The notes under the pieces are model-generated. The model was not told the DNA's origin. It worked only from the letters and a program-made list of their open reading frames with translations, and made no database searches. From positions 1 to 64,000 of the forward strand of contig CASGDR010000008.1 of assembly GCA_949300345.1 (NCBI GenBank): 64,000 bases of DNA, written 5' to 3'. This document shows, in pieces, positions 1-60,052 of the stretch. Made by a program: the position numbers and the translations under genes. Within the stretch, counting starts at the first letter, position 1, and each line of letters begins with the position of its first letter. This DNA is from an uncultured bacterium (lineage in GTDB: Bacteria; Bacillota_I; Bacilli_A; RFN20; CAG-826).

Positions 1-397
<397 letters not shown>

Positions 398-51663: not shown

Positions 51664-52101
51664 TTACTTCAGCTTGAGCACTTCGGGCTTCTGGGCCTCG
51701 TGCTTGTGATCTTCGCCCTCGTAGACGAACAGCTTCTTGATGATCTGGCGGCCCAGGCGTCCTTTCGGGACCATGCCCCAGACGGCGCGCTCGACCATTT
51801 CGCAGGGGAATTCCCTCTTCATGGTGCCGGCGCTCCTGGTGCGGAGGCCTCCGTTGTAGCCCGAGACGTTATAGTAGTTCTTCTTGTGCTCGGCGTCTCC
51901 GGTCAGCACGACCTTGGAGGCGTTGATGACAATGACATAGTCCCCGCAGTCGACATTGGGGGTATAGATGGGCTTGTCCTTTCCCATCAATTTGGTGGCG
52001 ACTTTGCTGGCGAGGCGCCCGAGGGGCAGCTCGCTGGCATCGACGATATACCACTTGCGGACGATCGTTTCGTTTTTGGCGATAGTGGTCTGACGTTGCA
52101 T
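51664..52101 (-). CDS. rplM: ribosomal protein L13
   Basis: The 145-residue large-subunit protein has WYIVDASELPLGRLAS, GDYVIVINA and GMVPKGRLGRQ. AAAGGAG precedes the ATG. In many Firmicutes rplM-rpsI follow ecfA1-ecfA2-ecfT-truA; here that module is 8 kb away. The upstream 130 nt may hold a ribosomal-protein leader, with a GTGCG/CGCAC stem near 52165-52190, but I cannot match a known one. Confidence 0.99.
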   Translation of the reverse strand: MQRQTTIAKNETIVRKWYIVDASELPLGRLASKVATKLMGKDKPIYTPNVDCGDYVIVINASKVVLTGDAEHKKNYYNVSGYNGGLRTRSAGTMKREFPCEMVERAVWGMVPKGRLGRQIIKKLFVYEGEDHKHEAQKPEVLKLK

Positions 52102-55586: not shown

Positions 55587-56092
55587 TCGTGTTTGTAACC
55601 GAACCCCAAGCGTATAACGATACGGGTTCGTAATCGCAATAGGGCTGCCCGGCTACCGGGTAGCAGAATAAAGGAAGCCCTTGAGGGGCTCCTTTTTCAT
55701 AAATCAATTTACCAACAGCACATCCTCAAACAGGGGAAATGCCGTTGCTTCAAGACCGGTAAACTTAATTGACGGGTCAAAGGCAGGTAGCTAATCCACC
55801 TTGGTCTTTGATTATAGATAGGTCCGGATTTTGTTAAGTGCCCTACTGTCCGGCGATATCGTCTATTTACAAGAACCTATTATGGAGAACGGCATCAATA
55901 AAGGGGTCATGAAACATCTGAAACATTATTTTCGGGACGGATTTAGCCGCCAATCTGGCCAAAATCCCTAACGCGGAAAGGCTAGCAACTACGGCAGCCC
56001 AATCATCTAGAAATGTCCAGCCGAATATGGTTTGAAACCTATGTAATAAAGGCAATTCGGGTCCGCGTGAGCGGATCATTTTTGCCACAACG
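55587..56092. other. gap after tRNA-Ser
   Basis: The first 110 nt contain a GC-rich hairpin GCTGCCCGG/CCGGGTAGC (55644-55664) and the tRNA terminator. From 55700 to 56092 I see no convincing gene. A minus-strand frame of 73 codons (56088-55867), opening with GTG, has unlike codon use and no known relative. Confidence 0.5.
55673..55698 (+). terminator. tRNA-Ser terminator
   Basis: GGA(A)GCCC/GGGCTCC with one bulged base, followed by TTTTTC. Confidence 0.75.
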
Positions 56093-58554: not shown

Positions 58555-58893
58555 TCAGTTGTCGCTGCCGCTTCTAACCAAGAGGCAGATTCCGGCAATC
58601 ATCGAGACGAAAAGTAGGGTGCAAACCCCAAAGCCGATCCCGATTTTTTCTCTCCTATCGATTCTTTTCCAGGCATAGACCGTCATCGGGATGCACCAGG
58701 CCAAGGGGATGATGAACCAGCCAAAGGAGATGCAGCCTAGGACCAGAAAGATCTTGATGACCAGCCCAAGATCATCGCTAGAAGAATTGGAGACGGGTTC
58801 ATAGACCACGCCGTATTGTTGGTCCGCTCCGCATTGGGGGCAGAATTTGGCGCTTTCATCGATTTCCGCGCCGCAGTATTTGCAGAATGCCAT
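58555..58893 (-). CDS. small zinc-ribbon membrane protein
   Basis: The 112-residue protein starts with a zinc ribbon (CKYCGAEI and CPQCGA, residues 4-24), then a Ser-rich linker and two membrane helices (about 42-70 and 84-108). Such zinc_ribbon_2 proteins are common in gut Firmicutes and their function is unknown. AGGA lies 8 nt before the ATG. Confidence 0.85.
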   Translation of the reverse strand: MAFCKYCGAEIDESAKFCPQCGADQQYGVVYEPVSNSSSDDLGLVIKIFLVLGCISFGWFIIPLAWCIPMTVYAWKRIDRREKIGIGFGVCTLLFVSMIAGICLLVRSGSDN

Positions 58894-59024
58894 GATTAAC
58901 TTCCTACGATTGCCCCTATCATAGAAAGAACGGCCCCAAAACCAAGTAGAAAATGAAATCAGTTTCGTTTGCTTTTAAGATTTTACATTTCCCCTCCATG
59001 GGTCAGCGTTCCTAGATTTAGGAT

Positions 59025-59046
59025 AAAGGGGCCAAAGGCCCCCTTC
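59025..59046. other. unassigned GC hairpin
   Basis: AAGGGGCC/GGCCCCCTT around AAA lies upstream of the zinc-ribbon gene. It resembles a terminator stem, but neither flank has a proper T-tract. Confidence 0.4.
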
Positions 59047-59121
59047 CTTAAACGCTTCTCCTACTAGGAAAATTCAAGTAAGCGATATGGCATGACGATC
59101 GGTTTGATTTCAAACAAGCAC

Positions 59122-59149
59122 TTGCATCCCCAAAGATTTTTAGAATAAT
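59122..59149 (+). promoter_or_regulatory. promoter of candidate small RNA
   Basis: TTGCAT (59122-59127), 16 nt, AATAAT (59144-59149). It resembles the three tRNA promoters of the window and points to no plus-strand protein gene. Confidence 0.5.
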
Positions 59150-59155
59150 GGAATT

Positions 59156-59298
59156 AACCCAAGAGATATCAAAAAAGATATCACTTGGAAAAGGCCGGAA
59201 GTCAGGCGACGCAAAAGAATCGAAGCCAATAATACGATCAGCGTCAGGACCAGACCAAGGCCTTATTCTATGGATAGCCCCTTCGAGGGGCGCTTTTC
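59156..59298 (+). ncRNA. candidate structured small RNA
   Basis: Between a tRNA-like promoter and a plus-strand terminator lies about 140 nt that can fold as: a 5' hairpin CCAAG-A-GATATC/GATATC-A-CTTGG with an A6 loop (59159-59188); a long domain closed by AAGGCC (59191-59196) and GGCCTT (59259-59264) with inner helices GACGC/GCGTC (59208-59212, 59241-59245) and ATCG/CGAT; then a GCCCCT-TCG-AGGGGC hairpin followed by GCTTTTC (59277-59297). GTCAGG occurs on both sides of the internal loop. The flanking genes are on the minus strand, so this terminator has no protein gene to serve. I recognise no known RNA family. Confidence 0.5.
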
Positions 59299-59308
59299 AT
59301 ACCCATAA

Positions 59309-59336
59309 GGAAAAGGGACCCTGAGGTCCCCTTCCC
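59309..59336 (-). terminator. yebC terminator
   Basis: GGGGACC/GGTCCC around TCAG followed by TTTTCC on the minus strand, 6 nt after the stop codon. Confidence 0.88.
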
Positions 59337-59341
59337 GTATC

Positions 59342-60052
59342 TTATAGGTTATCGACGTTGTGGTAGACGTTTTGGACGTCTTCGCAGTCATCAAGGGCGT
59401 CGATGATATCCTTGAACTTGCGGTGTTCCTCGTCTTCTAGGCTCACCGATTCGTTGGCCATGTAGGTGTTTTCGGCGGCGTCGAATTCGTTGACCCCGAT
59501 GCCCTTTAGCACATCCTTGGCCTTTTCGAGGTCATGCGGAGCGACGATGGCTTCGACCTCCCCGTCATCCAAACTGACGGATTGGACGTCCACATCCCCG
59601 AGGATGAGGGCCTCTTCGGCCTCGGCGCGCTTGGCCTCGTCGCCCGGGAAGTCGATGACTCCCACGTGGTTGAAGTTATATGAGACGGTGCCCATGCGCC
59701 CGCCCTTTTTGGTGACGATGGTCCTCACGGAGACCAGAGCCCTATTGGGATTGTCGGAGAGGGTATCGACGATGAGCAGCCATCCGCCGGAGCCCAGGAA
59801 TTCATAACGCCCCTCGATATAGGAGGTCGCATCCCCGCCCTTGGCCTTTTCGATGGCCCTTTCGATGACGTCTTTGGGGCAAACCTTCCGGTACTTGTCG
59901 ATGGCTGAGCGCAGGGCCAGATTGGCCTCCGGATCGGGAATTCCGGATTTGGCGGCGGCATAGATTTCCTTGCTTGCCCTCATATAGACCGCGCTCTTTT
60001 TGGCGGCCGTGGCTGCCATCGCGGCAGCCCTAACCTCGAAATGTCTTCCCAT
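59342..60052 (-). CDS. yebC: YebC/PmpR-family protein (translation or transcription factor)
   Basis: The 236-residue protein has the family pattern from the first residues (GRHFEVRAAAMAATAAKKS, then SKEIYAAAKSG) through the acidic C-terminal domains (VIDFPGD, DGEVEAIVAP). The family has been described as a DNA-binding regulator and more recently as a factor that helps ribosomes through proline stretches. AAGGAA lies 6 nt before the ATG, and an extended -10 TGGTAGAAT lies behind a CCACC/GGTGG hairpin at the truA end. Confidence 0.95.
   Translation of the reverse strand: MGRHFEVRAAAMAATAAKKSAVYMRASKEIYAAAKSGIPDPEANLALRSAIDKYRKVCPKDVIERAIEKAKGGDATSYIEGRYEFLGSGGWLLIVDTLSDNPNRALVSVRTIVTKKGGRMGTVSYNFNHVGVIDFPGDEAKRAEAEEALILGDVDVQSVSLDDGEVEAIVAPHDLEKAKDVLKGIGVNEFDAAENTYMANESVSLEDEEHRKFKDIIDALDDCEDVQNVYHNVDNL

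Follow-up and report, generated by a model that had tools for sequence, protein, structure and literature searches.

In the genome of an uncultured gut bacterium (1.05 Mb, 10 contigs), we found a spacer between two minus-strand genes whose plus strand combines a promoter-like site, a strong fold and a terminator-like hairpin to a degree that is above chance. We put the odds at about even that this candidate is a species-restricted, independently transcribed small noncoding RNA gene, because a promoter and terminator so arranged are rare in shuffled spacers, the fold reaches z -4.5, the terminator is of the tRNA-Ser style, the -35 variant is shared with other genes of the genome and no coding explanation presents itself. 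All positions without a contig label refer to the window, the whole 64,000-nt stretch of DNA that was analysed.

Signals and fold of the plus-strand candidate

The spacer (58894-59344) is flanked by minus-strand genes for a zinc-ribbon protein (58555-58893) and for YebC (59342-60052), and beyond yebC lie truA and a gene for an ECF transporter component. Because no plus-strand gene stands 3′ of the candidate and yebC converges on it, the candidate is not an untranslated region, a leader or a riboswitch. Its promoter-like site consists of TTGCAT (59122-59127), a 16-nt spacer and AATAAT (59144-59149), with a predicted start at about 59156, and the predicted small RNA of about 143 nt (59156-59298) takes its ends from the promoter and the terminator. 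The 5′ hairpin (59159-59188) has 11 pairs, one symmetric A-A mismatch and an A6 loop, and its arms, CCAAG-A-GATATC and GATATC-A-CTTGG, also form an inverted repeat in the DNA. It is followed by an interrupted rod (59191-59264), in which AAGGCC (59191-59196) pairs with GGCCUU (GGCCTT in the DNA, 59259-59264), GUC with GAC, GACGC (59208-59212) with GCGUC (GCGTC, 59241-59245) and AUCG (ATCG, 59219-59222) with CGAU (CGAT, 59235-59238). Two copies of GTCAGG occur, at 59201 and 59243. A terminator-like hairpin (59277-59291) closes the unit, the segment 59277-59298 reading GCCCCTTCGAGGGGC followed by the tail GCTTTTC. All elements named in a preliminary description of this DNA are present, at or within 1-2 bases of where it had placed them. 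The terminator hairpin that it described as containing TTCG is among them, but the loop is UCG closed by a U-A pair and not a cUUCGg tetraloop.

The ends of the folded transcript were fixed by the promoter and terminator and were not tuned. Between them the predicted transcript reaches -45.5 kcal/mol (z -4.5), a stability equalled by none of 200 shuffles; alternative cuts, with or without the terminator, gave z -1.7 to -5.2. Folded alone, the 5′ hairpin scored z -7.3 and the interrupted rod z -3.2. When the whole window was scanned blindly with a sliding fold, the candidate locus ranked 17th of 1065 windows (z -3.8). It thus lies in the tail of the fold distribution yet is not unique, and given this rank stability alone would not single out the locus. 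Windows with z < -3 make up 3% of the scanned stretch, many of them in coding sequence.

The pattern TTGCAW-16..18-NATMAT occurs six times in the 1.05 Mb genome: upstream of tRNA-Pro, tRNA-Lys and rpmE, at the candidate, and at two sites apparently inside coding sequence. The promoters of tRNA-Pro and tRNA-Lys read TTGCAA-17-NATMAT and that of rpmE TTGCAA-18-TATAAT. The candidate promoter matches 8 of 12 consensus positions, below the 9-of-12 threshold of the promoter-prediction tool. Its description as tRNA-like fits the hexamers, the -35 variant being common to tRNA-Pro, tRNA-Lys and rpmE, but not the discriminator, which is AT-rich; many tRNA promoters have a G+C-rich discriminator. The tail of the terminator has a run of just four T. 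The two tRNA-Ser units have similar terminators, AGCCCTTGAGGGGCTCCTTTTTCATA and AGCCCTACAAAGGGCTCCTTTTCATA. A promoter and a terminator of its own are assigned to the candidate by prediction only. The tRNA-Ser units are like it in promoter spacing and terminator style and unlike it in their content, since ARAGORN found no tRNA in the candidate. Two different tRNA-Ser genes of this genome are themselves followed by similar structured trailers of about 100 nt (a hairpin CGAACCCCAAGCG..CGATACGGGTTCGTAATC, a second hairpin and a terminator), one at 55587-55692 of the window after a CGA tRNA-Ser and one at G000 C10:32671-32775 on the minus strand. The tRNA-Ser genes of G006 have plain terminators, and the GGA and CGA serine tRNAs of G052 have a single hairpin, perhaps with a similar internal loop.

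We scanned all noncoding DNA of the genome for TTGNNN-16..18-NATNAT followed by a terminator-like hairpin within 220 nt. Shuffled spacers gave an expectation of 0.37 strand-segments, against five loci found, and a plus-strand unit arose in 0.13% of shuffles of the candidate's own spacer; the pattern was partly picked after the candidate had been seen, so these shuffle figures somewhat favour it, and recall was low, with just three of the genome's tRNA units recovered. The five loci are tRNA-Lys, two tRNA-Ser, the candidate spacer (on both strands) and an orphan near dnaN/recF. This last spacer (G000 C7:13422-13538, minus) has a promoter and terminator, no Rfam RNA and a strong hairpin, GAAAATGCC..GGCATTTTC. 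There is reasonable support for the earlier view of the candidate as an orphan transcription unit on the plus strand, promoter plus terminator and fold both exceeding shuffles and the terminator being like those of tRNA-Ser. These features and statistics are observations on one genome, from which we infer a transcript and its ends.

Conservation and the yebC junction

The preliminary description had proposed an Rfam scan, which was empty at the gathering thresholds; relaxing E to 10 brought up eukaryotic or viral families alone, all on the other strand. Searching 40 relatives with blastn gave just short chance matches; the best (22 nt, 95%) lies inside a glycosyltransferase gene of G013, where it encodes KSGEAKE, and the second lies within a gene of G011. 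In the 37 genomes of the genus, a covariance model based on this single sequence and its fold recovered the candidate itself and nothing in the 36 congeners. Three chance-level matches in the genus were rejected, the better two being inside genes; matches in G021 and G012 (E 0.02-0.5) were within genes. Against 279 genomes of the order the model again found only itself, and nothing in the other 278. As a positive control, the SRP RNA of the genome was turned into a model of the same type, which recovered SRP from 32 of the 36 other congeners, with every high-quality congener matched, all at E 1e-15 or better; an RNA evolving like SRP would therefore have been found.

Other collections gave the same picture. 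Exact matching of a 20-base core gave nothing in genome-contig and viral-contig collections, which may omit the source genome; phages yielded only a chance 26-nt match and plasmids none. No match was seen in loci of relatives that were located through YebC and taken with flanks of 6 kb, these relatives being uncultured Bacilli from metagenomes, and comparison with the whole G052 genome and 400 kb of G006 gave no similarity. Because congeners (36), the order (278 genomes), phages and plasmids all failed to yield a homologue, selection acting on the structure is not demonstrable. Conservation in close relatives was the test by which the preliminary description had offered its candidate new structured RNA for refutation, and with the SRP control positive the outcome went against a conserved class. 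By these sequence comparisons a conserved structured RNA class is refuted; a species-specific RNA is not, because even the nearest relatives compared are rather distant (YebC identity no higher than 78%) and because there is a precedent in S. aureus, where the majority of bona fide small RNAs are confined to the species and only 24% of 46 are common to other species of the family (PMC5826253).

The lack of conservation would also be expected if rearrangement at a variable junction had left a rapidly evolving spacer, whose signals are chance products or remnants and which encodes no functional RNA. The gene downstream of yebC varies within the genus (rplM in 12 of 20 congener loci, others in 8 of 20). 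Here yebC has no rplM neighbour and rplM lies at 51873, about 8 kb away; there is therefore a rearrangement at the yebC/rplM junction in the source genome, and the spacer 58894-59344 may be young. Two minus-strand terminators in the spacer, 288 nt apart and alike over 28 nt (75%), hint that it was patched up. Synteny on the side of the neighbouring 442-aa membrane protein is uninformative, since this protein is rare in the genus. Set against such an origin are the rarity of the signal combination in shuffled spacers and the strength of the fold, and we regard a spacer devoid of functional RNA as a possible but rather unlikely explanation.

Opposite strand and known RNAs

The minus strand of the same spacer carries a mirror image of the candidate that was absent from the preliminary description. 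This unit (59028-59258, minus) has no gene between its signals, which are the promoter-like sites TTGGTC-18-TATTAT (59258-59229) and TTGATA-16-CATTAT (59172-59145) and an orphan terminator-like hairpin (59042-59028). The claim that nothing else explains a plus-strand terminator here was too strong in view of it. A further minus-strand terminator, that of yebC (59313-59332), faces the terminator of the candidate. No open reading frame with a family match overlaps the candidate, but the possible minus-strand unit does, and it may be that RNAs come from both strands of the spacer or from neither. Short frames on both strands of the spacer gave no protein family match; one of 58 aa starts inside the -10 box and has no ribosome-binding site.

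Promoter- and terminator-like signals on both strands are what a sense/antisense pair would show, with the plus-strand RNA overlapping or opposing a minus-strand RNA that runs from about 59222 or about 59137 to 59028, either for antisense control or as a type I toxin-antitoxin system. A minus-strand frame (59262-59143) with a hydrophobic stretch of 40 residues would suit the latter, but it lacks a start codon preceded by a ribosome-binding site, belongs to no family and finds nothing convincing in congeners; the minus-strand fold (59222-59020) is also weaker, at z -2.6. Such a pair is improbable in our judgement. It is very unlikely that the 12-6-12 inverted repeat at 59159-59188 acts instead as a DNA operator for a dimeric repressor, placed over the plus-strand start and the minus-strand -35 region: the repeat is near-perfect and adjoins both promoter-like sites, but no second copy of this hairpin was found within the 64,000-nt window, and other GATATC pairs in the genome are spaced differently. 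It would be similarly far-fetched to see here a compact, species-restricted two-strand locus of a new kind, in which two overlapping RNAs, a strongly folded one from the plus strand and one from the minus strand, control each other, their promoters overlapping and having a palindromic site in common.

A divergent form of a known housekeeping RNA (6S, tmRNA, SRP or RNase P) is hardly credible: although no 6S RNA was found in the source genome with the Rfam 6S model or a genus model, while four to five congeners have a divergent one, the genome's tmRNA (C8:209660-210062) and SRP RNA (C7:21752-21849) lie elsewhere, the genus 6S model scores no higher than 5.4 bits in the spacer, in a register that is not the candidate's and without matching its structure, and Rfam offered nothing beyond the families already mentioned. 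ARAGORN found no tmRNA in the candidate. The earlier exclusion of tmRNA, SRP and 6S by eye is borne out, RNase P being excluded only through the lack of an Rfam match at the candidate locus. The 6S RNA of the genus (RF00013) is similar in length (156-168 nt in congeners), likewise an orphan gene and rod-like in fold, but the candidate has neither the conserved apical sequence nor the open central bubble.

The Rfam 6S model gave sub-threshold but convincing 6S in four congeners, and the genus model added a weaker fifth; the divergent loci are G044:C13:5770-5925, G043:C1:100722-100877, G012:C169:9757-9924, G041:C55:53-208 and G016:C20:20885-21046, and 6S was undetected in most congeners. The tmRNA tag peptides of the source genome (G000 C8:209660-210062) and of G052 (C1:239796-240194) are predicted to end in SYACA (GNSYFYGNHAQRASYACA and DKPSYFHAMPTMRTSYACA); tmRNA tags usually have ALAA-type ends.

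Proposed action and meaning

If the candidate is a small RNA gene, the TTGCAT/AATAAT promoter would direct transcription from about 59156, yielding an RNA of about 143 nt, modelled as a 5′ hairpin followed by the interrupted rod. Transcription would stop at the 59277-59291 hairpin, just before the converging terminator of yebC. As for targets and function, we infer by analogy with independently transcribed small RNAs of Firmicutes that unpaired stretches would most likely base-pair with mRNAs elsewhere; the putative pairing stretches are the A6 loop, the AAAAGAA and CCAAUAAUA segments and the internal loop with GUCAGG. Speaking against a small RNA are the absence of homologues in the genomes searched, the 8-of-12 promoter, the four-T tail, the 3% of windows that also have z < -3 and the similar signals on the minus strand.

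The closest known counterparts are the bona fide intergenic small RNAs of Firmicutes in the S. aureus set (PMC5826253), which like the candidate are intergenic, about 100-200 nt long and folded, have a predicted promoter and intrinsic terminator of their own and are mostly species-restricted. The candidate differs from them in being known from sequence alone and in having signals on the opposite strand too, and no sequence similarity to them was shown. The most it can be is an ordinary small RNA specific to its species, and not a new conserved class. The locus also holds a lesson of method: within a single genome, promoter, fold and terminator can pass shuffle tests, yet relatives and a matched control show no conserved RNA. 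If transcribed, the candidate would bring a further species-restricted small RNA, but no new RNA class, to a lineage of reduced-genome uncultured Bacilli in which RNA regulation has hardly been studied.
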